From a virus: a DNA stretch of 43,214 nucleotides. Below are positions 1-27,192 of the stretch, in pieces. The translations under genes and the position numbers were made by a program. Position 1 is the first letter of the stretch, and each line of letters starts with the position of its first letter. The notes under the pieces were generated by a model that worked only from the letters and a program-made list of their open reading frames with translations, was not told the origin of the DNA and did no database searches. The stretch is taken from the IMG/VR virus record IMGVR_UViG_3300036766_001458, positions 1-43,214 of that record, one strand, 5' to 3'.

Positions 1-1682
1 GGGGTTATATCGTCAGCTATTTTTTCTCCACTTTCTACTTTTGTACTGCTCTTTAATTTAGAAACTATTTCTTGTAACCTTGTATTGACATATGTTCCAG
101 ACTCTAACGCAGACCTTGATGCTTCTCCTAATGTTGGGAAAAAGGCACTAAGACCAAGTTTATCTAACATCAAATCTACAATACCTAACTCTTTCGATAT
201 AGTTCTGTTATTAAATAACCCTATTAAATTTTCAAGTTTTTGTATTACGTCTGCTATGTTTACACTACTCAAAGCTTGTTCTAAGGCAACATCTACTCGG
301 TTCTCTTGCTTTGCGGCTTGTGGAGCGGCAGAAGCTTCATCTTCTGGCTCTTGTACCTCAATTGGGGCTTCTTCTTGTGGTATAGTCGGCATTGGTTCTG
401 CCTGAGCATAAACCGTTATAAGCGCGGTTTCATCAGCAGCTTCTACGTCTATAGGCATGCCAGTACGTAATCTTTTGAAAAATTCATCAAAAGCTTGTTG
501 AGTCTCACTCTCAGGAGGTGTGACTGGTTGAGCTGCTGGCGATGCTACTGCTTCCGTAGGAAGAGCTGCCGGAGTACCTTCTGGCAGGGCTGCTGGAGCT
601 GGGGAGGCTGGTGTAGCTGCTAAATCGGCCAATAAGTCAGGAGCTTCTGCTATTTTATAGAAAAACGCCGATGCTTTTTTCTTACCGTTTGAATTAAGAA
701 AATTAGCAGCTCTATAAATATAATCCTCAAATAAAGATGACTTAATAGTTATTTTGTTAGATGTCTGAACTTTACGCTTCAAATCTTGTAAAAGCTGAAG
801 CATAAACTCTTGGTCATCACCGGCAAAAAACTGACCCTCAAGAGACGCTAATAATTTTTCGGCAGAATTTAAACGACTAATAATTCTAGATCTTTGAGTT
901 TCAATTTTGTCTCTAACTTCATTTTGGTCTGGTTTTTTAGGAATTTCGGGTTGTGGATTTAATTCTTCTTTTACTTCTTCTTTAAGAGCATCTTTACGAG
1001 GGCTGGGTAGCTGAGATTTAATGTTTGTATAATCAATAGGAGATTGAAGCCAAGAATCTTCTGACCAATCCGCAGCGGCAGTTTTGTATTTATCCGCCAT
1101 GCCTTCTTGATAGAATCTGAGCCAATGTTTGTAATCTATTTGTTCCATTTTATCCCAATTTGCAGTGATGACATTAAAGGCCTTATTAGAATCCTCTCCA
1201 GATCTTACCCTTGTATATATGTCTCCCGTTGCCTGCATCCATTTAGATATATCATAAGGCTGATATATTTGTTGTATCCCGGTACCAATTGGATACGCTA
1301 ATTTCATTGGGGTTTGCTGCGGTCTAACCTTCATACCTAACTTACTGGCGGCTACAGCAACGGCTTTAAAGAAATTCAATAAATTATCTATTGGATACTT
1401 GTCTTGATTTGAATATATTTCTGCGTATAAATCTGGCAGCAAATCCATACGCATTCCACCAGGCACAACAACTTCATGCAATATATCCGGGGCCAAATGC
1501 ATAATATGATAAAAAACTCTTTGTTCGTCGGCAGAGTTAATATTCTGCTGAGACATAATTTGAGCATGCTCTACATATTCTTCTTGCAAATGCTTGGGTA
1601 AACTTAAAAAATTAGGCCTTGATAATTGTCTATAAAAATAATTATTAATTTCGCCGGCTTGAAACAATTCTTCTAAATTCAT
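1..1682 (-). CDS. Large helical protein of unknown function, probable virion or packaging related (C-terminus off the left edge)
   Basis: The frame is open from the ATG at 1682 to the window edge, giving 560 complete codons. Its ATG overlaps the stop of the upstream gene in an ATGA junction, so the two are probably translationally coupled. The first ~210 residues are mixed helical with many aromatic residues. A Pro/Lys/Glu-rich hinge follows, then a helical segment, then an Ala/Pro-rich flexible linker at about residues 340-430, then another helical region at the edge. No ATPase, protease or nuclease motif is visible. The linker-and-helix architecture and the large unknown neighbours suggest a phage structural or accessory virion protein. 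That is inference; the coding call itself is firm. Confidence 0.8.
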   Translation of the reverse strand, partial: MNLEELFQAGEINNYFYRQLSRPNFLSLPKHLQEEYVEHAQIMSQQNINSADEQRVFYHIMHLAPDILHEVVVPGGMRMDLLPDLYAEIYSNQDKYPIDNLLNFFKAVAVAASKLGMKVRPQQTPMKLAYPIGTGIQQIYQPYDISKWMQATGDIYTRVRSGEDSNKAFNVITANWDKMEQIDYKHWLRFYQEGMADKYKTAAADWSEDSWLQSPIDYTNIKSQLPSPRKDALKEEVKEELNPQPEIPKKPDQNEVRDKIETQRSRIISRLNSAEKLLASLEGQFFAGDDQEFMLQLLQDLKRKVQTSNKITIKSSLFEDYIYRAANFLNSNGKKKASAFFYKIAEAPDLLADLAATPASPAPAALPEGTPAALPTEAVASPAAQPVTPPESETQQAFDEFFKRLRTGMPIDVEAADETALITVYAQAEPMPTIPQEEAPIEVQEPEDEASAAPQAAKQENRVDVALEQALSSVNIADVIQKLENLIGLFNNRTISKELGIVDLMLDKLGLSAFFPTLGEASRSALESGTYVNTRLQEIVSKLKSSTKVESGEKIADDIT

Positions 1683-5829: not shown

Positions 5830-6153
5830 TTAAATCGAATACTTATCAGCCATTACTTTAGGGTTTATTACGCCAATCTCTGCTCGGTAAATCATGTCTG
5901 ATTTCATCCTTTGATACATACCTTGCTCATATCGCCTAATACCCCCACTACCTTCCCAACCATACTCATCAATCCTACGCTGAGCTTCTAACACATCAAA
6001 TCTAAACCTATAATCTCTCTCAAATGCCAATGAAACAAAATATGGAGTAAATATATGGGCGTACTGATCGAATATGCCGCCGCCCTCCCACGCTCTGTCC
6101 CAACCTTTATAATAAAAATATTCGTTCGTATATCTTTGAATTTCCGATATCAT
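5830..6153 (-). CDS. C-terminal part of an apparently frameshifted gene, unknown function
   Basis: From the first ATG this reads as 107 residues, rich in aromatic residues (YFYYKGWDRAWEGGG, FDQYAHIFTPYFVSLAFERD). The same frame stays open and protein-like upstream to about 6252 (for example GIVRVCKDFICEC and FTPLLERR) but has no usable start there. The ATG at 6296, coupled to the GIY-YIG gene by ATGA, lies in another frame and stops at 6210. A -1 shift between 6252 and 6210 would join them into one protein of about 150 residues. Either the gene carries a real or sequencing frameshift, or translation starts at the internal ATG at 6153. The family is unknown. Confidence 0.55.
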   Translation of the reverse strand: MISEIQRYTNEYFYYKGWDRAWEGGGIFDQYAHIFTPYFVSLAFERDYRFRFDVLEAQRRIDEYGWEGSGGIRRYEQGMYQRMKSDMIYRAEIGVINPKVMADKYSI

Positions 6154-6209
6154 GCGTCTTTCAAGTAGAGGGGTAAAGCACTCGCAGATAAAATCTTTAC
6201 AAACTCTAA

Positions 6210-6296
6210 CTATACCATCCGTAAATATTTCATTTTCAGGCTTAGGATTTGTTCATAAATTTTAATATTTATTGGGTTTAGTATATCTATTGTCAT
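6210..6296 (-). other. Orphan N-terminal reading frame upstream of the frameshift
   Basis: An ATG at 6296 overlaps the TGA of the GIY-YIG gene (ATGA) and opens a 28-codon frame, MTIDILNPINIKIYE..., that ends at TAG 6212-6210. The downstream protein-coding frame is offset by -1 and is open from 6252. Nothing else explains this start, so I read it as the true 5' end of the gene continued at 6153. No strong slippery heptamer is visible in the 6252-6210 overlap. Confidence 0.45.
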
Positions 6297-7300
6297 TTTA
6301 TGCTTTTTTGTACCTTATTACTATATTTATCTTCCATAGCGCCTTTAACTGGCACATAATTTTCATCAATCCAAGTTCTATTTTTAAGTATTAACATAGC
6401 AGATACTCGTCCCATATTATATTTCTCTCCAAGCTTCGTATAACTAATAGACGGATCTGTATCACTCTCTGCTCTGAGCGCCTTAATTTCTTCCCATGTG
6501 TGTTTGCACTGAGAATTACGCTCTCCAGATGGTATTTTGTTTATTTCTTTTATTTTTTCGGCCTGAGAGCAATCATAATTAGGATCAATCCAAATAGTAT
6601 TATCAATTATAGAGAGAATATTTGCCGAATTATATTTTTCAGACAGTTCACCTATTGATGTATTTCCGCCTGCATATTCCTCTCTAATGGCTCTAACTTG
6701 TTCCCATGTAAGTTTAGCAGTTGAGCTGTTTTCACCGCTTCTAACAAGCGACATATTCTTTTTATGCTCTTCTGAAAATTTAATACCAGTCCTACCAGTA
6801 GATATGGCCTCACAATGTTCGGCTGATAATGGCCTACCCTTTCTGACCGCTGACATTTTGGCCTTGCATTGTTCAGTAAGTTTTTTGCCAGTATGCGCTA
6901 AGGATAATTTTTTCTTATGCTCATCTGTGAGAATTTTGCCAGTATTTGCTATTCTAAGCTTTTCCTTTGTTTCCTCTGTATGTTTACCTCTGCTGCCAGG
7001 CTCTCTAGTATTATACCCCTTCTCTCTATTCATTGAATCATAAAAGTTTACATAGTAAATTTCCCAATATGTTAAATCATCTTCGTCTGTACATTCTCCT
7101 TTTATAATTTCAAACGTAAAATTTTCTGAGCCATATTTTTTTATCGCCCGCCCAAAATAATAAAGTTCATCTGTGCTTTTACATTTAGCTTTTGATATGT
7201 GTTTGTCCCATCTGTCCTCTGGGACATTTTCAGTAGTTTGCCCAACATATACCTTTCCATTAATTTTGTTTGTTATTAGATAAATAACGCCATACCCCAT
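6293..7300 (-). CDS. GIY-YIG homing endonuclease with NUMOD-type repeats
   Basis: A 335-residue site-specific endonuclease of the GIY-YIG family, which makes breaks that mobilise its own gene. The N-terminal catalytic domain shows the GVIY motif (residues 4-7), YVG (18-20), the likely catalytic Arg30 and a Glu in YWEIYYVNFYD. Residues ~100-190 hold repeated HTEETKEKLR / SEEHKKNMS type segments, the NUMOD3 DNA-binding repeats. The C-terminal half has two repeats beginning LTWEQVRAIREEY and HTWEEIKALRAES, which resemble helix-turn-helix modules. It sits between two genes without intron-like flanks, so it looks free-standing. Its stop overlaps the start of the frameshifted gene. Confidence 0.92.
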   Translation of the reverse strand: MGYGVIYLITNKINGKVYVGQTTENVPEDRWDKHISKAKCKSTDELYYFGRAIKKYGSENFTFEIIKGECTDEDDLTYWEIYYVNFYDSMNREKGYNTREPGSRGKHTEETKEKLRIANTGKILTDEHKKKLSLAHTGKKLTEQCKAKMSAVRKGRPLSAEHCEAISTGRTGIKFSEEHKKNMSLVRSGENSSTAKLTWEQVRAIREEYAGGNTSIGELSEKYNSANILSIIDNTIWIDPNYDCSQAEKIKEINKIPSGERNSQCKHTWEEIKALRAESDTDPSISYTKLGEKYNMGRVSAMLILKNRTWIDENYVPVKGAMEDKYSNKVQKSIK

Positions 7301-7309
7301 ATATTTCCT

Positions 7310-8182
7310 TTAAAATATTCCTTCTTCCTCTTGCAACTCATATATTCTGGCAACTATCGCTATTATACGCTCATCCTTTTCTGCTAATTTACGAAGTTTT
7401 TTGCGCGCTCCCCCATAAATTTTGCGACCATTTCTGTAGTCACAATTATGCGCAACCAAACTATCAACTATAAAATTATGATTGTCTTTTACCTCAATAT
7501 CATAAACCTCCTTCGCCACTAATACAACTTCATTTTTTTCAACTGCCACAAAATCTCCACTTATTGCCCCAGTTGTTGTTTTAATATAATTTTCACTATT
7601 TAATTCGTGGGCTGCCAACCACCCCGTATTTGTTAGAAATTTATGATCAGAAGTGCATTCTATAGTACTATTTCCACAAGTAATTTTTATCACTTCTTTT
7701 TTTCCACGATTCCAAGCATATGTTATTTCTTTATATTCAAATTGTTCAGTTTTTTCATTGTATGTTTTTACTAGTGGTAATTTTTCTTTAGCCGCCCATA
7801 TATCATAAAGCTTCCCAATTTTAATTTGGCCTATTTCTGTATCTATATTTTGACTGTAAATTATGCAATTACCGTTTATGGATTTTGTAATTGACGATTG
7901 ATTAACTCCCAACTGTTTAGCAATCTCTATTTGAGTAAACCCTTGAGAATACAAATTAATCACTTCTTTCTGTCTATCAGTAAGTTCACTATTAACTAAT
8001 CTCCAGAACTCTTTCTTGAGTTGATCTTTTAAATCATGAAGCTCATCATTATATTTAGCCGAAGTGACAGTAGAAGTCATTCCTTCTGCCTCGGCGTGTT
8101 CTGCTAACATTTCAGGAGAGCACGATAGCTCAGCGAAATAATGTTGGTAATGATTGCTACGGTTATTAGTTCTATCAGCCAT
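7310..8182 (-). CDS. Sigma-70 region 4-like DNA-binding protein interrupted by an intein
   Basis: I place the start at ATG 8182 (MADRTNNRS), which has AGGAG four bases upstream. An in-frame upstream start at 8212 lies inside the previous gene. Residues 65-105 form a helix-turn-helix of sigma region 4 type (LTDRQKEVINLYSQG, then IAKQLGVNQSSITKSINGN). Residues 106-246 are an intein. The C-extein resumes at Cys247 with DYRNGRKIYGG and a basic helix. Splicing would give a 149-residue protein, probably a transcription regulator or sigma-like factor. The intein sits just after the recognition helix, so the unspliced precursor is likely inactive. Which promoters it controls cannot be told from here. 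Confidence 0.88.
   Translation of the reverse strand: MADRTNNRSNHYQHYFAELSCSPEMLAEHAEAEGMTSTVTSAKYNDELHDLKDQLKKEFWRLVNSELTDRQKEVINLYSQGFTQIEIAKQLGVNQSSITKSINGNCIIYSQNIDTEIGQIKIGKLYDIWAAKEKLPLVKTYNEKTEQFEYKEITYAWNRGKKEVIKITCGNSTIECTSDHKFLTNTGWLAAHELNSENYIKTTTGAISGDFVAVEKNEVVLVAKEVYDIEVKDNHNFIVDSLVAHNCDYRNGRKIYGGARKKLRKLAEKDERIIAIVARIYELQEEEGIF
7445..7867 (-). mobile_element. Mini-intein (about 141 residues, no internal endonuclease)
   Basis: The Hint splicing domain is complete but lacks a homing-endonuclease insert. Block A begins at Cys106 (CIIYSQNIDTEIG). Block B is TIECTSDHKFLT, with the TxxH signature at Thr177-His180. Blocks F/G read YDIEVKDNHNFIV ... VAHN, ending in His245-Asn246. The first C-extein residue is Cys247. 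All residues used in class 1 splicing are present: Cys1, the block B His, His-Asn and Cys+1. A LAGLIDADG endonuclease gene lies immediately upstream in the operon. The reading frame is continuous through both junctions. Confidence 0.93.
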
Positions 8183-9185
8183 TTTTCTCCTGTTGTAACG
8201 CTCCTGGCACACCTCTATTTAAAGTGCGGCCATTAAACAAATTATTTACACCAAACTTCTTAGCAGACAAATACACCGTAGACAAAGAGCACTTATATTT
8301 ATTAGCTATTAGTTGTGGACTTTTTAGTGTCAATATTTCATTTATAAGTATTTCCTTTGTGAATCCTGTTTTTACACTAATTTTTCTTTTATTATACTTG
8401 TAAATATCTGTAATTCCAAATTTTTTAATTAACAAAGAGACACTTGAGTGATTATATCCAAGTTCTTTACCGACAGCTTCACAAGAGCCTAGTCGCTTAT
8501 AAGAATCTATTAATTTTTCCTTTGTTATTTTATCTGGATATGCAACTAAAGACAACAGCTGTAAATGTTGTTTATATTTTCTTTCTAACCAAATTGTAGA
8601 ATTGTCGTATAAAAACGTTGACAGTTTTAAATTTTGTACATTTCCAGAATAATTTAAAGCCCCTTGCCCATTATACATATATGACTTTGGCGTTTTAGAT
8701 ATTTTATTATTAATTAATATATTGCGGTATGTATTTAAAAAACTTATTGTGCCGCAAATTCTAGAGGTCATTTGGTGAGTATAGCCTCCTGTGCTTAAAT
8801 AAAACCCGCCATCACCATCAAAATAACCACGCATAAAATGATTTACTAACTTATGATTAGCTAGCCACTCAGGAAATTTATGAGTGTGTGTTTTTCGCGG
8901 GCCAATACCAAATTTAGCTAAATCATCAAACATTATTTTGGAACATACGCTTATTCTTGAGTGTGTTTTTGTTTTTATTACTGGGTTTTCGGCAAATATT
9001 GATTTTTTAAATTTTTCAACATGAGCGTGATCTTTTACTGATAAATTAATAATTACCTGATATGAGTTACGCTTGCTAATATGAAGGCACCCATCAGCAG
9101 CAATAAACCCGGCCCAATAAAAAGCCTCTTCAGATTCTTGTTTAAAAAAATGATCATCACAATTATATTTTCTGTACCCGGTCAT
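8175..9185 (-). CDS. LAGLIDADG homing endonuclease with C-terminal helix-turn-helix repeats
   Basis: A 336-residue protein with two LAGLIDADG helices, AGFIAADG at residues 25-32 and RGYFDGDG at 119-126. The Asp in each (31 and 125) is the expected metal ligand, so it should be catalytic as a monomer. The C-terminal ~110 residues carry helix-turn-helix segments (GSCEAVGKELGYNHSSVS, then SPQLIANKYKCSLSTVY). The start has TAGGAG overlapping the primase stop. Its end overlaps the next gene by 8 bases. The sequences at its two ends, AGGAGAAAATG at 9193 and AGGAGAAAAATG at 8191, are near-identical. That suggests insertion at the ribosome-binding site of the intein-bearing gene. Confidence 0.93.
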   Translation of the reverse strand: MTGYRKYNCDDHFFKQESEEAFYWAGFIAADGCLHISKRNSYQVIINLSVKDHAHVEKFKKSIFAENPVIKTKTHSRISVCSKIMFDDLAKFGIGPRKTHTHKFPEWLANHKLVNHFMRGYFDGDGGFYLSTGGYTHQMTSRICGTISFLNTYRNILINNKISKTPKSYMYNGQGALNYSGNVQNLKLSTFLYDNSTIWLERKYKQHLQLLSLVAYPDKITKEKLIDSYKRLGSCEAVGKELGYNHSSVSLLIKKFGITDIYKYNKRKISVKTGFTKEILINEILTLKSPQLIANKYKCSLSTVYLSAKKFGVNNLFNGRTLNRGVPGALQQEKNG

Positions 9186-9191
9186 TTTCTC

Positions 9192-9992
9192 CTACAGCTT
9201 TAAGTTATTCAAATTATTTATAAAATGATTACGTCTAGATATATCAGCTTCTTTGATAAGAAAGTCATCAATATCCTTAAATTCGCTGGGAGGTTGACTA
9301 ATTATAATTCTTGCATAATCTCCAAAATTTCTCTTAATGTTTTTTGAAGCACGCCTGCCAGATTCATCACTATCTAATAAGAGGACGAAATTATTAGTAT
9401 ATCTTCGTAATTTAAAAAACTGATACCGTGATAATGCGGCCCCTCCCAAAGCAACAACATTATCTATTCCTGCACATTTACAAGAATAATAATCAAACTG
9501 CCCTTCAACCAAAATAACATAATCTTTTTCAATTATACTTTGGCGCGACGAATCAAGCCCAAACAAATACAACTCTTTATTTAAACCATAAGAATATTTG
9601 TACTTAGGTATTTCTAGCGCGTCTTGCTTTTGCTTATCAAATAATGTTCTGCCTACTAGAGCTATAATATTTCCATACATATCTGAAAATGGAAATATTA
9701 AATTATGATGTGTAAAATGTCCGTTATGAGTAACTCCGCCCGACAAATACTTAGGATATATTAGGCCTAGTTTTTTCAATACATCTTTGTCCACAAGAGA
9801 ACTAATAAAACTAAGTTGATCATTAGCCGGAAAATAACCGAATTTAAATTTGTCTTGGAAACTTTTTGGAATTCTGGAGTCTAAATATTCCCTAGCGGAC
9901 GCAGCAATAGCATCGTTTTTCAAAATATATTGACATGAACTAACTACATCCTCGAAGAGCTTTGACTGTTCTTCGATTTGTATTGATTTCAT
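9192..9992 (-). CDS. DNA primase catalytic (TOPRIM) subunit, lacking the zinc-binding domain
   Basis: A 266-residue protein corresponding to the RNA-polymerase core of DnaG, which makes RNA primers for the lagging strand. The N-terminal part (YLDSRIPKSFQDKFKFGYFP) matches the DnaG core, as does LIFPFSDMYGNIIALVGR. The TOPRIM metal residues are visible: Glu163 in VEGQFDYY, and Asp207 and Asp209 in LLLDSDESGRRAS. There is no CHC2 zinc finger and no helicase-binding domain. The missing zinc domain is encoded separately at 31707-32336. The start overlaps the 118-residue zinc-ribbon gene by four bases. Confidence 0.9.
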   Translation of the reverse strand: MKSIQIEEQSKLFEDVVSSCQYILKNDAIAASAREYLDSRIPKSFQDKFKFGYFPANDQLSFISSLVDKDVLKKLGLIYPKYLSGGVTHNGHFTHHNLIFPFSDMYGNIIALVGRTLFDKQKQDALEIPKYKYSYGLNKELYLFGLDSSRQSIIEKDYVILVEGQFDYYSCKCAGIDNVVALGGAALSRYQFFKLRRYTNNFVLLLDSDESGRRASKNIKRNFGDYARIIISQPPSEFKDIDDFLIKEADISRRNHFINNLNNLKL

Positions 9993-10345
9993 GACCGCTG
10001 ATTAGCCTTACCTAAAGATATAAGGTTCTGCTTGATCATATCGGCAAATGGTCTGGCTAATTTAGTTAACTCTTTTGCACAACCACCACAAACCAGCTTA
10101 TTATCTTTACTTAGCTTAGGAGGTGTCTCTTTAAGACACGCCTCGCACTTAACAGACCAGGCTTGCTTAGTTTTTTCAGCCTTTCTAACCTGCCCAAGAG
10201 AAATCATTTGCGTCTTGGTAAAGCTGGTGATGTTTTTAATTTCCTTCCCGCAATCGATACAAATTACTTGGTTCGTTGTTTTATCTACAACATGCTCGCC
10301 TTGTTTGTAGCACCCTTTATTGTCACAGTATAATTGAAATCCCAT
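9989..10345 (-). CDS. Small double zinc-ribbon protein
   Basis: This 118-residue protein has two Cys pairs forming a first ribbon (Cys7/Cys12 and Cys29/Cys32) and a second set (Cys67/Cys70 and Cys86/Cys89). The order suggests two zinc ribbons joined by a helix, TQMISLGQVRKAEK. Such proteins usually bind nucleic acid or bridge proteins. It sits between the resolvase and the primase core, overlapping the latter by four bases, so a replication role is plausible but not shown. Confidence 0.75.
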   Translation of the reverse strand: MGFQLYCDNKGCYKQGEHVVDKTTNQVICIDCGKEIKNITSFTKTQMISLGQVRKAEKTKQAWSVKCEACLKETPPKLSKDNKLVCGGCAKELTKLARPFADMIKQNLISLGKANQRS

Positions 10346-10355
10346 GTTATCTCCT

Positions 10356-10937
10356 TTACTTACATTGCTTACTTGCTTTCTCTTTCTCGACCAAAATATA
10401 AGCTAATCCAACAGCAATTGAATCCGCTACGTCAAAATTTTCTATCATAACTTTATTTTTCCCGGTTTTTTTATCTAATTTAGCGTTTCCTTTTTTATCT
10501 TGCGCGTAATAATATGGGAAGTCGATATTTAAATGTTTTGCTACTATCTCCGGCATATCTTCTTTAGCGGGGAATTTTTTATCAAATTTAAGCTTATGTC
10601 TTATCCTCATCACGTTCATCATAATTGGCTCTTTACCTAAATACTCATAACAAGTAAGTCCAACCGTCCTGTTAAATACGGCTAATAGAATAATAGTTTT
10701 AGCGCCGGAACCGCCTTTTAGAAACTGAATAATTTCTTCTATTACTATTTCATCTGGTTTTAATTGTTCTAGTTTTTGTTTTATGAAGGATTTGGTAGCT
10801 GACAGTCTTTCAAATATAGATCCCTCTTTTGGCGGCTTATAAAACTCTTGATGTTCTAAAGTTACTTTGCCGTCTTTTGTTGATAAAAGAGATATTCCAA
10901 TAGTTGTTGAAGAGGCATCCAATCCCAATATTCTCAT
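10356..10937 (-). CDS. RuvC-like Holliday junction resolvase
   Basis: A 193-residue RNase H-fold nuclease that cuts four-way junctions formed in recombination and replication. The acidic catalytic residues are recognisable: Asp7 in RILGLDASSTTIG, Glu67 in DEIVIEEII, and Asp169/Asp172 in FDVADSIAVGLAY. The length is a little above that of bacterial RuvC (~173). The insert lies around a Lys-rich loop, KKGNAKLDKKTGKNK. In phages such enzymes also resolve branched DNA before packaging. It lies just downstream of an HNH endonuclease gene and upstream of the zinc-ribbon gene. Confidence 0.9.
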   Translation of the reverse strand: MRILGLDASSTTIGISLLSTKDGKVTLEHQEFYKPPKEGSIFERLSATKSFIKQKLEQLKPDEIVIEEIIQFLKGGSGAKTIILLAVFNRTVGLTCYEYLGKEPIMMNVMRIRHKLKFDKKFPAKEDMPEIVAKHLNIDFPYYYAQDKKGNAKLDKKTGKNKVMIENFDVADSIAVGLAYILVEKEKASKQCK

Positions 10938-10958
10938 AAACGGTATATATCATCTGTT

Positions 10959-11951
10959 TTATTTCTTTTTATGTCTTGTCCTTCTGGCTCCGTCTAATAC
11001 ATTTTGTTTGGCACTTAACGGTCTTAAATTAGATAGCGCCCAGGCTTTCTGAAAATTACTATTAGGATCATGTGACATTTCAGTATACGGAAGATCTGAT
11101 TGTGGTATTATATGATCTATCTGCCACGTCCAAGTAGATGAATCGTTATCATCCCAGGTTTTAGCATTATACACACCTTGATTATCATCAATCATCCACC
11201 ATTCGTATTTAGAAATTAAATATTCTTTTATTGATTTTAAATTCAAATATTCTGTAATAGATGATTTGCTTTTAGATCCTCCGTTTTCTTTTAAAGATAT
11301 ATTAATTGTGCGACTTATATTTTTCCTAAGCCTATAGTTGGCGTCATTTTTCCTACGATCTCTATCTCTTGTTCTAATTTTTTCTTTACTACTTTCTTTG
11401 CTTTTATATTTTTTATCATATTGTTTTTGACACTGCCTTTTGCGCTCTATATTTTCTTCATAATATTTCTTGCGTTTTTTAGATATCTCTTCTTTGTTTG
11501 CTTCATAATAATTATTGTGTTTCTCTCTAATTTTGTCTTTGTTGGTTTCGTAATAATTTTTTTGCAAATTATTTATTTCTTCTTTTTTGTCTTTATAGCG
11601 TTCTGCATGATATTCTCTAATTTTTTCTTTATTATTTTCGCGGTAAGCCTTTCTTTGTTCCGCAATGCTTTTTTTATTTTTGCCTTCATACTCTTTGTGC
11701 TTTTTTGTTATTTCTTCTTTATTGTTTTTATAACGCTCCGCGTGATATTTTTTATTTTTTTCTTTATTATTTTCACGATATAATTTACTACTAATTTTCT
11801 TTTTGTTTTTTATACAATTTTTATCATTATACCAACTGCTAATGTCATTACGCCAAACAAAGTTATCTTTATTTAATTCTTTTGTCTCTGTGCATGGCCC
11901 TGAGCATTTTTTAAATTCAATGCCATTTACAATTATTATGTTTTTACTCAT
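10959..11951 (-). CDS. HNH homing endonuclease with long Lys/Glu repeat linker (copy 1)
   Basis: I choose ATG 11951 (MSKNIIIVN) because AGGTGG lies four bases upstream; an in-frame TTG at 11966 has no such site. The N-terminus has a Cys-containing treble-clef-like segment (KKCSGPCTE ... NWRND-like). About 180 residues of repeated YRENNKEKI / ERYKNNKEEI units follow, forming a charged helical arm. The C-terminal HNH nuclease has WQIDHIIPQSDLPY and NLRPLSAKQN. It is paralogous to the genes at 14224-15018 and 15528-16187 and has the longest repeat arm. It lies right behind the terminator of the single-strand-binding gene, so it may be expressed at a low level. Confidence 0.9.
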   Translation of the reverse strand: MSKNIIIVNGIEFKKCSGPCTETKELNKDNFVWRNDISSWYNDKNCIKNKKKISSKLYRENNKEKNKKYHAERYKNNKEEITKKHKEYEGKNKKSIAEQRKAYRENNKEKIREYHAERYKDKKEEINNLQKNYYETNKDKIREKHNNYYEANKEEISKKRKKYYEENIERKRQCQKQYDKKYKSKESSKEKIRTRDRDRRKNDANYRLRKNISRTINISLKENGGSKSKSSITEYLNLKSIKEYLISKYEWWMIDDNQGVYNAKTWDDNDSSTWTWQIDHIIPQSDLPYTEMSHDPNSNFQKAWALSNLRPLSAKQNVLDGARRTRHKKK

Positions 11952-14223: not shown

Positions 14224-15018
14224 TTATTTTCTTGCGCCTTCTGAGATATTTTTAACAGCCTCTAGTGGTCTAAGGTTTTCTAAAGCCCAACATTTTTGAA
14301 AATTACTATTTGGATCAAATGACATTTCTTTGTATGGCAATTGAGATTGGGATATAATATGATCTATATGCCACTTCTTTTCTCCGCCTCGTTTATATTT
14401 ACCATGATTATCCCAATTCATCCACGGCTCAAAAAGAAATTCTAAATGTTGCTTTAACTCAATAATTGAATATGATAAATATTCCATTATAGATTGCCCG
14501 TTTTTTGAGCCGCCGTTATCTTTTAATTGTGCTAAAATAACAGTACTAACATTACGTCTAATCCTAAACTCAGGATCTTTTATCCATTTTTCTTTTATTT
14601 TTGAATTTCCTTTTTCAATCATATGTTTTTTATGATTCTCAGCTATTCTAGTTTTATTATTTTCTCTATATTTTTTTGTAGCTTTTTTATTTGACTCAGC
14701 CACCTTTATGTAATTATTTTCTGACCATAGTTTATGTGAGCGCGCTATTTTTTCTTTATTGTTTTCTCTATATTTTTTATTTGATTTTTTCCGAGATGCA
14801 GCTATTTTTTCTTTATTGTTTTCTCTATATTTCTTATTTGCTTTTTTATTTATAGATGCTGCTTTTTCCGGATTTTCTTTTTTGTAAATTTTGGCTTTTA
14901 TAGCCTGGCACGCACCACACAAATAATAACTCGTTTTCCTTAAACCATTTGTCCAGTTAACGCCAATAATTAACTCATCACCACATTTATTACAGTTTCT
15001 TGCTTTATCAGACACCAT
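14224..15018 (-). CDS. HNH homing endonuclease with tandem repeat linker (copy 2)
   Basis: A 264-residue paralogue of the genes at 10959 and 15528. The N-terminus has a zinc-ribbon pair of CxxC motifs (CNKCGDE, CGACQ). The middle is made of 19-residue units beginning KKYRENNKEKIAAS. The C-terminus is the HNH nuclease, WHIDHIISQSQLPY and ALENLRPLEAVKN. It starts inside the last codons of the 158-residue gene (11-base overlap) and ends just before the RecA gene, leaving both intact. That position is typical of a free-standing homing gene between essential genes. Confidence 0.9.
   Translation of the reverse strand: MVSDKARNCNKCGDELIIGVNWTNGLRKTSYYLCGACQAIKAKIYKKENPEKAASINKKANKKYRENNKEKIAASRKKSNKKYRENNKEKIARSHKLWSENNYIKVAESNKKATKKYRENNKTRIAENHKKHMIEKGNSKIKEKWIKDPEFRIRRNVSTVILAQLKDNGGSKNGQSIMEYLSYSIIELKQHLEFLFEPWMNWDNHGKYKRGGEKKWHIDHIISQSQLPYKEMSFDPNSNFQKCWALENLRPLEAVKNISEGARK
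14744..14857 (-). repeat. 57-base tandem repeat inside the HNH linker
   Basis: Two adjacent 57-base units, 14744-14800 and 14801-14857, differ at only about two positions over their first ~47 bases. They then diverge at the end of each unit. Each encodes one 19-residue KKYRENNKEKI unit. More diverged copies flank them. The high similarity points to recent unequal duplication of the linker. Confidence 0.85.
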
Positions 15019-15527: not shown

Positions 15528-16187
15528 TTAAATTTTACAACCCTTTGATATATTTTGAGCGGCATCTAACGGCCTCAAATTTGATAATGCCCAACATTTC
15601 TGAAAATTAGACTCAGGATCATGCGACATCTCTGCATATGGCAGCTGTGATTGTGGCGTAATATGATCTATATGCCACTTTCTACCTTCTCCGCGTCTAT
15701 AAGTTCCGTGATTATCCCAATTCATCCAGGGCTCCCAAAGAGACTCTAAATACAATCTTAATTCCTCTATAGTATATTTTAAATAAAATAATATGGAATC
15801 CCCGTTTTTCCCGGCAATGGTGCGTTTTAACCCTCCCAATATAGCCCTGCTAACATTGCGCCTTAATTTATAATTAGGATCATTTTTTATTTTATTTCTT
15901 CTATACTCGTTTCTGTAATTATCTATTTTATTTTTGTTATTTGCGTAATACGTTTTTACATCATCTATTATTTTTTCTTTATTATTGTTATATCTTAATT
16001 TTTGTTTTTCTGATATTCTGTTTATATTATTTTGTCTATATATTTCATTGCTTAACAAAACGCATTTTTTACATTTCTTTTGTAATTTACTTCGATCATT
16101 TCTCCAATAAAAATTATCTGTATTAGCCTCTTTTTCTAAATAGCAACTTGAACATACAATGGTATTTTTATCGCTATTTGTTTCCAA
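15528..16187 (-). CDS. HNH homing endonuclease (copy 3, short linker)
   Basis: A 219-residue paralogue of the two other HNH genes. It starts at a TTG (16187) with AAGGA four bases upstream, inside the 3' end of the 119-residue gene. A treble-clef-like N-terminus (CSSCYLEKE, WRNDRSKLQKKCKKC) precedes a short charged arm with few repeats (NNNKEKIIDD). The nuclease end has WHIDHITPQSQLPY and ALSNLRPLDAAQN. It is the shortest of the three because the repeat arm is reduced. Both neighbours remain complete. Confidence 0.9.
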   Translation of the reverse strand: METNSDKNTIVCSSCYLEKEANTDNFYWRNDRSKLQKKCKKCVLLSNEIYRQNNINRISEKQKLRYNNNKEKIIDDVKTYYANNKNKIDNYRNEYRRNKIKNDPNYKLRRNVSRAILGGLKRTIAGKNGDSILFYLKYTIEELRLYLESLWEPWMNWDNHGTYRRGEGRKWHIDHITPQSQLPYAEMSHDPESNFQKCWALSNLRPLDAAQNISKGCKI

Positions 16188-21250: not shown

Positions 21251-21534
21251 AAGTTTTTAAGCACCTCATCAAGCAGCAACTCGAATTTTTTCAAAAGCTC
21301 TTCGCAATTATTACCACTACATCTAACTTGCACTCGCGTACTTCCAAATGAGGCTGTGGCAATAAGACCGCTATTTTGAACATAGAATAACCCAACGTTA
21401 CTAAATTGTTTTGGGATTATATAGCCAGCTTTTTCAAAAGAGTCTAAATGATTCTTTTTAACTGGCTTCTGTGATTCAAAAATGAATGCCTTATTGCCAC
21501 AACACGAACGCACATTTATTTTATTTATCATCAC
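21247..21534 (-). CDS. Small Cys-containing phage protein of unknown function
   Basis: A 95-residue protein with a beta-rich core (GLFYVQNSGLIATASFGSTRVQVRC), Cys residues at 11-12 and near 72-77, and a C-terminal helix (CEELLKKFELLLDEVL). I recall similar short proteins in other large phages but no function. It overlaps both neighbours by four bases. Confidence 0.68.
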   Translation of the reverse strand: MMINKINVRSCCGNKAFIFESQKPVKKNHLDSFEKAGYIIPKQFSNVGLFYVQNSGLIATASFGSTRVQVRCSGNNCEELLKKFELLLDEVLKNL

Positions 21535-22469
21535 GCCACTAATTTACATAATAATAATTTATTTAAATATTTTTTTATTTTTGTACCAACATAAATTCGC
21601 CCGTCAATTTCTAACAAATTAATATTATTTTCTTCGCAATGTTGCCTTAATAAGGTGTCTCTTAATTTTTGCTTTATTAGATTTTCTTTTGCCATTTCTT
21701 GCGTCATATTCCCGAATGGGACCTCAACAAAATGTTGTCTTCCATGATATTCTATATATAAATTTAAATCATGTATATAAAAATCTGGATATAATCTTTT
21801 TTTGCCTATCATCAATTTTGGGTGTCTGATGTAATTTATTTTTGCCTCTGTTAAAAATTCAGCAACTATTTGTTCGTTTTTATATAGGCATGAAGGGCAT
21901 CCTTGACCGCTCAAATGATTATTCGGCTGTTGTAAAAACTCACCATGTAATTTGCAAATAATTATTCCTTTTGTTTTATGATGTTTATAAATAAATTTAG
22001 AGTAATCATATAAAAACAAATGAACTATATTGGCCTTCATAATAAAATCTTCAGTATTTGATTTTAAAGTGCCTCCACATACCGGACACCCGTGCCCGGC
22101 CAGATGATGATCTGGAATTTGTAAAAAATCACCATGAACAACACATGTTATGGTAACTTTTATACCAGAAGTAAAATAATTTGTTTTACTATAAACCCAC
22201 CTGTTATTATGGATAACATTTGACTTATCGATAAACTCTTGTGTGTTTGATGAAATTAATTTTGCTCTAAATAATATTGCGCATTTATTACAGCCCTTGC
22301 CGGACAAATGATCATTTGGCCTTTGAAAGAAAATGCCATGCTCGGGACAAACGAACATGACTTTTTCACTTACCAAATTATAAATCGTTAATTTATAAAA
22401 TTCATCTGAGTTACACGGATGAACTAATTTGGCCTTTTTAATGAATTCACTTGTGGTTAATTTCCGCAC
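21531..22469 (-). CDS. Homing-type endonuclease with three zinc-ribbon repeats (DUF723-like) and a PD-(D/E)xK-like nuclease end
   Basis: A 312-residue protein with a GTG start directly after an in-frame stop. Three repeats of ~65 residues each end in a Cys/His pattern like CPEHGIFFQRPNDHLSGKGC, CVVHGDFLQIPDHHLAGHGC and CKLHGEFLQQPNNHLSGQGC. The C-terminal domain has LYPDFYIHDLNLYIEYHGRQ, an Asp...Glu-x-His pattern of Vsr/PD-(D/E)xK-type nucleases, then NNINLLEIDGR. It is a shorter paralogue of 26074-27192. It overlaps the next gene by four bases. DUF723 is named from memory. Confidence 0.85.
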   Translation of the reverse strand: MRKLTTSEFIKKAKLVHPCNSDEFYKLTIYNLVSEKVMFVCPEHGIFFQRPNDHLSGKGCNKCAILFRAKLISSNTQEFIDKSNVIHNNRWVYSKTNYFTSGIKVTITCVVHGDFLQIPDHHLAGHGCPVCGGTLKSNTEDFIMKANIVHLFLYDYSKFIYKHHKTKGIIICKLHGEFLQQPNNHLSGQGCPSCLYKNEQIVAEFLTEAKINYIRHPKLMIGKKRLYPDFYIHDLNLYIEYHGRQHFVEVPFGNMTQEMAKENLIKQKLRDTLLRQHCEENNINLLEIDGRIYVGTKIKKYLNKLLLCKLVA

Positions 22470-22486
22470 GTATTAATGCTTAGTTA

Positions 22487-22771
22487 TCACCTAATTCCGC
22501 GTTGACGCATTACGAACAAGCAATAATTTACCTTAGCTTTTTCGGTAGCTAACTCATCTTTATACCCTCCGGACAGAGCTTTTAAATCTTCCTTCAGAGC
22601 CGTCAACTTTGCGTCGTTCTCCATATCTAATTCCAGATCAACTATAACACCTGATGCTTTTAATATCTCTTGCTTAAGCTCATCAGTGTTTTTAGTCTCC
22701 ATATTTTCTTTATAGTTTTCTGGTAACTTTTTATCATACTTCTTCGGAAACACAGGCTCATCTTTTGACAT
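22487..22771 (-). CDS. Conserved phage protein of unknown function, coiled coil
   Basis: A 94-residue charged helical protein beginning MSKDEPVFPKKYDKKLPENY. The repeated acidic/basic heptads (LKQEILKASGVIVDLELDME, KLTALKEDLKAL) indicate a short coiled coil, ending RQRGIR. It follows the trigger factor gene by 13 bases. Similar small proteins occur in many phages without a known role. Confidence 0.72.
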   Translation of the reverse strand: MSKDEPVFPKKYDKKLPENYKENMETKNTDELKQEILKASGVIVDLELDMENDAKLTALKEDLKALSGGYKDELATEKAKVNYCLFVMRQRGIR

Positions 22772-25090: not shown

Positions 25091-26074
25091 TTATATTAGT
25101 GTACGGTATCTTCCTGGCAGCCATTTGAACACACCGGGCGTTCTTCCAAATACAATCTTCCCATAATTTCCAATATCTGCTGAGTTTGCTTGGAACGGCA
25201 CTTTTGATATTATCCAGCGGTTAGTATCTGAATCAAAGTAATAATAATTCATTGTATTATCACGAGGATTATACTGGCTCTTTAATGCGGTTCCTCTAGG
25301 GCCAGGACCATCTAAAGCGCTAGTGAATAATAGAGCACCATATCTAGCCCTAGTAGGATCTTCTAAACTAAAGGAAGACCTATTAGTTCTTGGTATTGTT
25401 GGGTCGTAAGGAGACTGCGTAGAGTCATCAAATATAACAAGCGCTTTAGGGTTGAAAAAAGGAGAATTAGTATTATTAGAGCCCTTTGGAACTGAACCCG
25501 GGGTATTTGGCTGAGGCACTATAACTGTAACTTGAGCCGGTAACGTACCAATACCTTTGCCGGCCTCCCCAATGCTATTAGTTTCAGAAAATACAAAAGA
25601 ATATTCATTTAGTGGGAGATTAGTATAATTAGAAATACCACCTGAACCGTCATATCCGTCTGGAATTTGGGTTAACTCGGGATTATCAACAGTAGTTCCG
25701 CCTATATTACCATACCTTGGGTCCATTCCTGGATCTTGACTTCCAAAAGGATAAGTCGGACCAATAACATTTTGATTCAAATTAGAGATGGTATCGCGCG
25801 GCATCCTATTACCAACGGTGGTACTTCCGTATTGCTTTGTAATAATTGCCGAGTTATTGATACCATCAGTAGCAAATAAACTTAAAATAAATGAACCAAT
25901 ATCTGAAGGAAGAAATAATTGGCCAGTAATAATAGAATTTGCGGTGGTTGGAGTTGTTCCGTCCAAAGTATAAAACACAGTAGATGGAATATTTGTAGTA
26001 ACATTAATAGAATTAGGTATTCCCGCAACCTTTTGTAATACAGACTCTGATATTGTAATGCTGATTACCGACAT
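25091..26074 (-). CDS. Probable virion or appendage protein with a chitobiase-like (CHB_HEX_C) domain
   Basis: A 327-residue, Ser/Thr/Gly/Pro-rich protein. Residues ~25-50 hold VFYTLDGTTPTTAN, the signature of the immunoglobulin-like C-terminal domain of chitobiases, which is common in phage decorations and fibres. Beta-type sequence follows (EYSFVFSETNSIG, AQVTVIVPQPNTPG), then a C-terminal domain containing DPTRARYGALLFT and GNYGKIVFGRTPG. It has no signal peptide. The start overlaps the stop of the endonuclease gene by one base. It is the only structural-looking gene inside the replication and repair block. Confidence 0.75.
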   Translation of the reverse strand: MSVISITISESVLQKVAGIPNSINVTTNIPSTVFYTLDGTTPTTANSIITGQLFLPSDIGSFILSLFATDGINNSAIITKQYGSTTVGNRMPRDTISNLNQNVIGPTYPFGSQDPGMDPRYGNIGGTTVDNPELTQIPDGYDGSGGISNYTNLPLNEYSFVFSETNSIGEAGKGIGTLPAQVTVIVPQPNTPGSVPKGSNNTNSPFFNPKALVIFDDSTQSPYDPTIPRTNRSSFSLEDPTRARYGALLFTSALDGPGPRGTALKSQYNPRDNTMNYYYFDSDTNRWIISKVPFQANSADIGNYGKIVFGRTPGVFKWLPGRYRTLI

Positions 26075-27192
26075 TACGCCGCCGCCCTAAAGTAATTTTG
26101 TAAAAACTCCTTTAGCATTTCTCCACGATATAATCTGCCATCAATTTCTAATAAATTTATATTATTTTCCTTACAATAACCCCTTAACAAATCATCTCTT
26201 ATTAATTGGTTTAAAAATTTTTTATTCGCCTTTTCTTTAGAAATATTATTAAAACAAATTGGTTCATAATGCTGAGCCCCATTATATTCAATTATCAAAT
26301 TAAATAGAGGTATAAAGAAGTCTGGGTAGAATTTTTTGCCATTTATAATTAGCTTATTATCTTTACAACGTAAATAGTGTATTTTAAGATCCGCTAATAC
26401 TTCTGATACTAATTGCTCGTTTTTGTTTAAACACATTGAGCAGCCATGTCCGCCTAAATGATTGTTTGGAGTTTGCCAAAAAGATCCATGTTCAACGCAA
26501 ATTATTTCTACTTTAGAATTTGATTCTTTATAGTTTGTTTTAGAATAATTATATTTAAATTTATGTATTTCGTTTGCTTTTTTAACAAAATCTTCCAAAC
26601 AATAAACTCTACTGCATCTACGACACCCAAATCCTCGCAAATGACTATCTGGTGATTGCCAAAATGAACCGTGTACGGAGCAAACTATTTCTACATCATC
26701 ATGCATATTTTTATAATTTGTTGAAAAATATGCATATAATTTACCGTGTTTTTTTATTGCTCTTTTTATGAACTCAGCAGTATCTATTTGCTTACCGCCA
26801 TAACAAGAGGGGCATCCCTGTTCATAATTTGTGTGGTTGTTTGGTGTCTGCTTAAACTCACCATGTTTTTTACAAATAATAATTACGTCTGTTTTATTAT
26901 TTTTATAGTCAACTGAATCATAAATATACTCATCTGTATGAATAGCTTTTGCTTTTTTAACAAATTCTTCTGCGTTTGAAGATAATGATTTTATTCTTTC
27001 TAATTGGGCGCAAACATGACACCCACGGCCACCTAAATGATTTCTTGGCAGTTGTTCAAAATAGCCATGCAAACTACATTTGATTATAACTTTTTTATTG
27101 TTTGTTTTATAATTAATTAAGTCATATTCATAAATGTTACCGTGAATCAGCACAGCTTTAGCAATAAATGTTTCCGTAGTAAGCAATTTCAT
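26074..27192 (-). CDS. Homing-type endonuclease with four zinc-ribbon repeats (DUF723-like) and a PD-(D/E)xK-like nuclease end
   Basis: A 372-residue paralogue of 21531-22469 with one more repeat. The four repeats end in CSLHGYFEQLPRNHLGGRGC, CKKHGEFKQTPNNHT, CSVHGSFWQSPDSHLRGFGC and CVEHGSFWQTPNNHLGGHGC. The nuclease domain has FYPDFFIPLFNLIIEYNG and NINLLEIDGRLY. The start follows the 103-residue gene by two bases and the stop overlaps the virion gene (TAATG). It leaves both neighbours intact, as expected of a free-standing homing gene. Confidence 0.87.
   Translation of the reverse strand: MKLLTTETFIAKAVLIHGNIYEYDLINYKTNNKKVIIKCSLHGYFEQLPRNHLGGRGCHVCAQLERIKSLSSNAEEFVKKAKAIHTDEYIYDSVDYKNNKTDVIIICKKHGEFKQTPNNHTNYEQGCPSCYGGKQIDTAEFIKRAIKKHGKLYAYFSTNYKNMHDDVEIVCSVHGSFWQSPDSHLRGFGCRRCSRVYCLEDFVKKANEIHKFKYNYSKTNYKESNSKVEIICVEHGSFWQTPNNHLGGHGCSMCLNKNEQLVSEVLADLKIHYLRCKDNKLIINGKKFYPDFFIPLFNLIIEYNGAQHYEPICFNNISKEKANKKFLNQLIRDDLLRGYCKENNINLLEIDGRLYRGEMLKEFLQNYFRAAA

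Follow-up and report, generated by a model that had tools for sequence, protein, structure and literature searches.

The joining of splicing elements and homing endonucleases is an old question, and collaborative homing has been shown for introns. In cyanophage S-PM2, the free-standing gene for the Endo VII-type enzyme F-CphI adjoins the nuclease-free group I intron of psbA, the cleavage has been measured, and the intron, located at the presumed cut site, is described in passages of PMC6083498 as protecting the host copy. In phage T4, it was shown by experiment that the separate HNH enzyme encoded by mobE mobilizes the neighboring nrdB intron with its defunct I-TevIII (passages of PMC2988022). 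The terminase intron of phage ICP1 is adjoined by a T5orf172 gene, and several nuclease genes in this phage form islands that bracket essential genes at exchange tracts (passages of PMC10448857). The passages on collaborative homing in PMC2814812, PMC10448857, PMC2988022, and PMC3984707 concern introns. For inteins, cases are described in which mcm or dnaB carries a nuclease-free mini-intein next to a full intein, and these mini-inteins move only with the help of the nuclease in the second intein (passages of PMC10643990). How often the nuclease of a neighboring intein helps a nuclease-free intein to home was called an open question in passages of this 2023 paper. No described case of intein-based collaborative homing was found in a literature search whose scope comprised parts of articles and few of the subscription papers, and no published case of an intein inside a sigma-like regulator was found by paper titles.

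The locus described here belongs to an uncultured bacterial virus and is located in a stretch of 43,214 bases, which we refer to as the window. A tightly packed block of genes on the minus strand contained, in the order of transcription, a gene for a DnaG/Toprim-type primase (9192-9992), a LAGLIDADG endonuclease gene (8175-9185), a gene for a helix-turn-helix (HTH) protein (7310-8182) and a GIY-YIG endonuclease gene (6293-7300). The HTH gene encodes a precursor of 290 amino acids that starts with the ATG at position 8182, and a longer GTG start was not needed. It consists of an N-extein (7868-8182), an in-frame mini-intein of 141 amino acids without an endonuclease domain (7445-7867; residues 106 to 246 of the precursor) and a C-extein (7313-7444), all on the minus strand. 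The LAGLIDADG gene upstream encodes a free-standing, two-motif protein of 336 amino acids with an HTH-like C-terminal part. Its stop codon is located inside the HTH gene, the start codon of which is overlapped, and about 310 bp separate the end of the intein from the end of the LAGLIDADG gene. The GIY-YIG gene directly downstream, which encodes a protein of 335 amino acids with NUMOD3 repeats and was absent from the original prediction for this DNA, starts 10 nt past the stop codon of the HTH gene. The best reading of this arrangement is collaborative homing, in which the LAGLIDADG enzyme would act in trans for the mini-intein; we put it forward tentatively, from sequence comparisons, as falling a little short of probable.

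The segment at 7445-7867 is, by sequence and by model, a class 1 mini-intein that is predicted to be self-splicing. It matched the Pfam family Intein_splicing (8.1e-13) and, in PDB, the Spl DnaX mini-intein (9.4e-14), and the residues of a class 1 mini-intein were present: C1, T72 and H75 (the TxxH of block B), the F block, H140, N141, and the +1 Cys. The AlphaFold2 model (pLDDT 91.3) and the Foldseek search indicated a HINT fold without an endonuclease domain, which fits a class 1 mini-intein. There were 64 Foldseek matches at E ≤ 0.001, and the 50 matches listed were all inteins, intein-like domains or Hedgehog, including the archaeal TFIIB mini-intein (PDB 5o9i), which is a transcription-factor intein. 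The interval between blocks B and F is a short linker, whereas most of the aligned phage intein relatives hold a nuclease (LAGLIDADG_2 region) there, and this alignment bore out the claim that the splicing blocks are present and that the intein contains no endonuclease.

The nearest relatives found were inteins in the large subunit of the terminase (L099, L100, L101, and L127; 40% to 46% identity) and a helicase mini-intein (L103; 38% identity); these are the closest in the splicing domain, but they reside in other host genes. The three terminase inteins checked (L099, L100, and L127) have retained an in-frame LAGLIDADG_2 domain, whereas the free-standing neighbor in the window is of the LAGLIDADG_3/phrog_4645 type. 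We therefore rejected the possibility that the neighbor is the endonuclease once lost from the intein. A tblastn comparison of the neighbor with 32 intein loci outside the lineage of the window likewise gave no matches. It was also noted that a terminase frame of 1,337 amino acids at L127:2117-6127 apparently contains 2 inteins, one with LAGLIDADG_3 and the other with LAGLIDADG_2.

To place the intein in its host protein, we collected 66 viral loci, then the best 80 of 197 relatives (with an alignment) and 2 loci from metagenome-assembled genomes. In total, 147 loci were used, which reduced to 94 distinct ones when compared over 300 bases of the HTH gene, and the intein was limited to a single lineage among them (the window, L002, and L003). 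Among 50,697 named phage records, none matched the HTH protein, and GTDB contigs yielded 2 matches. The matching sequences were up to 458,729 bases long, and some of the carriers are therefore huge phages. The gene order primase, HTH gene, g5287 was retained in most relatives, the primase gene being the conserved upstream neighbor. All 46 aligned members of the HTH family matched sigma-factor PHROGs, and the structural model of an intein-free homolog (L005) aligned with sigma region 4 over 75 residues (VIA-align Z 9.5). The match of the HTH protein to Pfam Sigma70_r4_2 was below the cut-off, and Foldseek alone identified no match to the homolog model at E ≤ 0.001. By sequence and modeled fold taken together, the protein is similar to sigma-70 region 4, and its role as a regulator is predicted. 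Both the coordinates of the intein and the identity of its sigma-like host gene were as the original prediction had given them.

In the model of the intein-free homolog, a helix at residues 84 to 90 is followed by the recognition helix (95 to 103), a β-hairpin (105 to 107 and 113 to 115) and C-terminal helices. The intein is inserted at 105|106, between the recognition helix and the predicted β-hairpin and within the sequence NQSSITKSxNGN|xDYxNG, and the model hence agrees with the claim that it sits directly past the recognition helix. That splicing could switch on the regulator is plausible from this model. The motif at the insertion point is near-invariant (NGN|CDYRNG); the most conserved windows of 10 residues start at positions 91 to 96, and the window 101 to 110 ranks 23 of 140. 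Of the 93 proteins examined, 64 had Val at residue 106, 28 had Cys and 1 had Thr. Val is unable to act as the +1 nucleophile, and only a part of the HTH family could therefore host the intein.

The LAGLIDADG gene matched LAGLIDADG_3 (8.6e-6) in Pfam and phrog_4645 (9.9e-47), which bears out the claim that an intact two-motif gene of this kind lies immediately upstream of the intein-bearing gene. Both motifs are located in one chain, and the motif acids are kept in the sister protein of another locus, L159. The gene is a reading frame of its own, outside any intron or intein, and no group I intron was found at the Rfam gathering score in the whole window. It was intact in 2 phage populations with 4 mismatches in 1,011 bases. 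Judging from its sequence, it is a free-standing homing endonuclease gene, the product of which is predicted to cleave DNA. In the LAGLIDADG family, 3 of the 95 loci examined adjoin an HTH gene, and these represent 2 lineages; no further alleles adjoining an HTH gene were found in viral sequences among the best 80 of 153 relatives. Elsewhere in the family, the segment L082:3676-5687 contained 2 LAGLIDADG genes that appear to interrupt a gene that is intact in L085, and 2 group I introns were identified further on by Rfam.

Two near-identical sites had been reported to bound the LAGLIDADG gene, and both are real: AGGAGAAAATG (9183-9193, minus strand) is where the LAGLIDADG gene has its ribosome-binding site and its start, and overlaps the stop codon of the primase gene, while AGGAGAAAAATG (8180-8191, minus strand) contains the same two elements for the HTH gene and lies inside the LAGLIDADG gene at its 3' end. 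The pattern AGGAGA(2-6)ATG was seen at these 2 genes only among the 45 window genes checked. Although it is this rare in the window, the repeat has no counterpart at the sister gene of L159, and it was rejected as a conserved insertion boundary. The position fits the suggestion that the LAGLIDADG gene was inserted at the ribosome-binding site of the HTH gene, the HTH start being overlapped in both phages, but the shared motif is missing in L159. Free-standing endonucleases of the T4 type cut hundreds or thousands of bases away from their own genes (passages of PMC2988022), and an insertion at the ribosome-binding site is therefore compatible with an action in trans.

Nuclease genes are common around the HTH gene. 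Of the 77 distinct loci for which 900 bases were available on either side, 33 had a GIY-YIG, HNH or LAGLIDADG gene within 1.5 kb, and a nuclease adjoining the HTH gene is therefore ordinary. A LAGLIDADG neighbor, which was seen in 2 of the 77 loci, namely the window lineage and L159, is not. The GIY-YIG neighbors were identified by Pfam; the HNH-like neighbors had no match in Pfam (0 of 10), and all 8 that were compared with the PHROG endonucleases matched. One HTH gene, in L067, has GIY-YIG genes on both sides and is interrupted by 46 extra nt (L067:2987-3032) that include a hairpin of 13 perfectly paired bp (-34.5 kcal/mol on folding, z -5.9). The insert breaks the frame at NQSS|ITKS, which lies 8 codons upstream of the intein site, while the remaining gene is intact. 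We considered the insert as a translational-bypass element and rejected this, since the codon before resumption is TAG and the last-read codon is TCG, and the insert was seen in one contig only. With its broken frame, L067 was left out of the statistics on the 93 proteins.

This density of nucleases gives some weight to the reading that the LAGLIDADG gene and the intein are passengers that came independently to a hot spot. The enzyme would then cut elsewhere, in the 5' part of the HTH gene, the end of the primase gene or their junction, the intein would be an immobile, hitch-hiking relic, and the motif in L159 would be coincidental. With 3 nuclease families flanking the HTH gene, neighbors of this kind come as no surprise, the LAGLIDADG family is for the most part located elsewhere, and the enzyme in L159 is present without an intein, which is hence not needed. 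We consider this reading a real possibility that is somewhat doubtful, and the evidence that counts against it comes from L159.

The LAGLIDADG protein in L159 is 46% identical to that in the window over 211 amino acids, and the two are sisters with an SH-aLRT value of 96 in a quick tree of 78 rows. The 3' end of its gene overlaps the start of an intein-free HTH gene, in the same position as in the window. At the intein site, the HTH protein of L159 reads NGNVSYEDKTHKKSYGG in place of the usual NGN[CV]DY[RK]NGKK[IV]YGG, with changes in 3 of the 14 near-invariant columns of the site and the sole indel, which makes it the most deviant of the 93 proteins there. None of the 38 other near-invariant columns was changed. 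The chance that all 3 changes would lie no more than 6 residues from the insertion point was 0.0038, a value that applies to one independent allele, the odd motif of which was noticed prior to the testing. When the whole protein was scanned, the most deviant stretch of L159 was 105 to 116, and it ranked first of the 93 proteins at 104 to 113 (z 5.4), whereas its ten nearest relatives had a motif that was normal or nearly so. Since 11 other proteins deviate more in other regions, the strength of the signal is its place and not its size. The most deviant stretch in the window lineage was 34 to 43, a variable region nearer the enzyme gene, where L159 is normal. Any change of the site was seen in 3 of 34 genes beside other nucleases, as compared with 5 of 44 genes for which no nuclease was seen.

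If the LAGLIDADG gene and the intein were independent passengers, it would remain unexplained why the sole intein-free allele with the LAGLIDADG gene deviates most exactly at the intein site and is normal at all other near-invariant columns. A homing nuclease can be retained only in a genome that has no intact target for it. In both lineages that carry the LAGLIDADG gene the intact site is missing, being split by the intein in one and changed in the other, as would follow from cleavage by the enzyme at this site. L159 also carries an HNH gene downstream, which could be the cause of the changed site, and the motif could also be the scar of a lost element. The alignment of intein-free homologs, which the original prediction had suggested for locating the target of the endonuclease, hence points to the intein site through one independent allele, that of L159.

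The sequences show the anatomy of the locus, the two enzymes as sisters and an altered site in each of the two carrier lineages; for collaborative homing with the mini-intein, we infer cleavage at the intein site, splicing and the joint transfer of the intein and the enzyme gene. The free-standing LAGLIDADG enzyme would cut the HTH motif past the recognition helix (approximately NGN|CDYRNG) in co-infecting relatives with an intact motif, and repair from the window genome would copy a block spanning the intein together with the enzyme gene. The intein would split the site and shield its own genome from the enzyme, and its splicing out would keep the regulator usable. In L159, which contains the same enzyme lineage without the intein, the site would be shielded by codon changes instead. 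The suggestion that the endonuclease acts in trans for the intein thereby became the best-supported reading, although the support is comparative and does not amount to proof. The more specific claim that this is the first case of intein-based collaborative homing, in which the target of the LAGLIDADG enzyme is the site of the nuclease-free intein and protection is given by the intein or by recoded codons, is possible and, from the sequences compared, rather less than probable.

A second phage population, represented by L095 and L096, has the primase, LAGLIDADG, intein, HTH, and GIY-YIG genes in common with the window. The identity to the window was 97% to 100% per 100 bases over positions 5892 to 9800, and dropped to 56% to 81% at 10201-11300 (19% to 44% difference). 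Other tracts of 99% to 100% identity between the 2 phages were located at approximately 12.4 to 13.1, 17.5 to 19.7, 21 to 27, and 31.5 to 33.8 kb; such tracts therefore show frequent exchange and not homing in particular, and we rejected the tract across the locus as a proof of homing. Two window genes at 21531-22469 and 26074-27192 with treble-clef zinc repeats (Pfam DUF4379) resemble further nuclease genes, and both are in stretches of 99% to 100% identity with L094, of which the mismatch-free run 21488-22498 corresponds approximately to the first gene. Furthermore, HNH-like genes at 14224-15018 and 15528-16187 (identified by motif reading; no Pfam match), near recA and other genes, have no counterpart in L095, which is otherwise similar, as seen from alignment gaps.

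The longest run without any mismatch to L095 and L096, 5892-7650, spans the GIY-YIG gene and a part of the intein, which would agree with a mobilization of the intein and its surroundings by the downstream GIY-YIG enzyme instead of the LAGLIDADG enzyme. However, relatives of the GIY-YIG gene (55% to 61% identity) were identified in the same place in L007, L008, L009, L011, and L012, all with intein-free HTH genes. The intein-site motif is normal in L007 and L008, and the DNA of all 5 loci is identical there. Carrying the GIY-YIG gene therefore needs no altered site, and we regard this explanation as improbable.

Finally, the intein could be a kept regulatory switch, its mobility being over, such that conditional splicing sets the timing of the activity of the sigma-like regulator; the intein parts the recognition helix (95 to 103) from the predicted β-hairpin (105 to 115) and the C-terminal helices, the unspliced precursor is probably inactive, and conditional splicing has reportedly been published for other inteins. 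This is highly improbable, since the intein occurs in one lineage of the 94 distinct genes, there is no sign of a sensor, and inteins usually reside in conserved motifs (passages of PMC2814812).

The locus places an intein within a sigma-like regulator and offers a test with few and small parts: one enzyme and 3 natural target alleles, which are normal, intein-split, and recoded. If the collaborative homing reading is true, it would represent a present-day intermediate that links free-standing endonuclease genes with inteins that carry an endonuclease. As with F-CphI and psbA, a free nuclease gene adjoins a nuclease-free splicing element that is proposed to protect its genome by occupying the cut site, but the element in the window is an intein and not an RNA intron, the enzyme is of the LAGLIDADG and not the Endo VII type, and cleavage is deduced from sequence. 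The T4 system resembles the proposal in that a separate nuclease mobilizes a neighboring splicing element, and differs in the intron and the HNH enzyme, which take the places of the intein and the LAGLIDADG enzyme. As in ICP1, the nuclease gene lies next to and not inside the element, and several nuclease genes flank essential genes where exchange tracts occur, although ICP1 contains an intron and the passages on it describe no intein case. The mini-inteins of mcm or dnaB are nuclease-free and dependent on help, like the intein in the window, but whereas their helper is the nuclease of a second intein, the helper here would be a free-standing gene.
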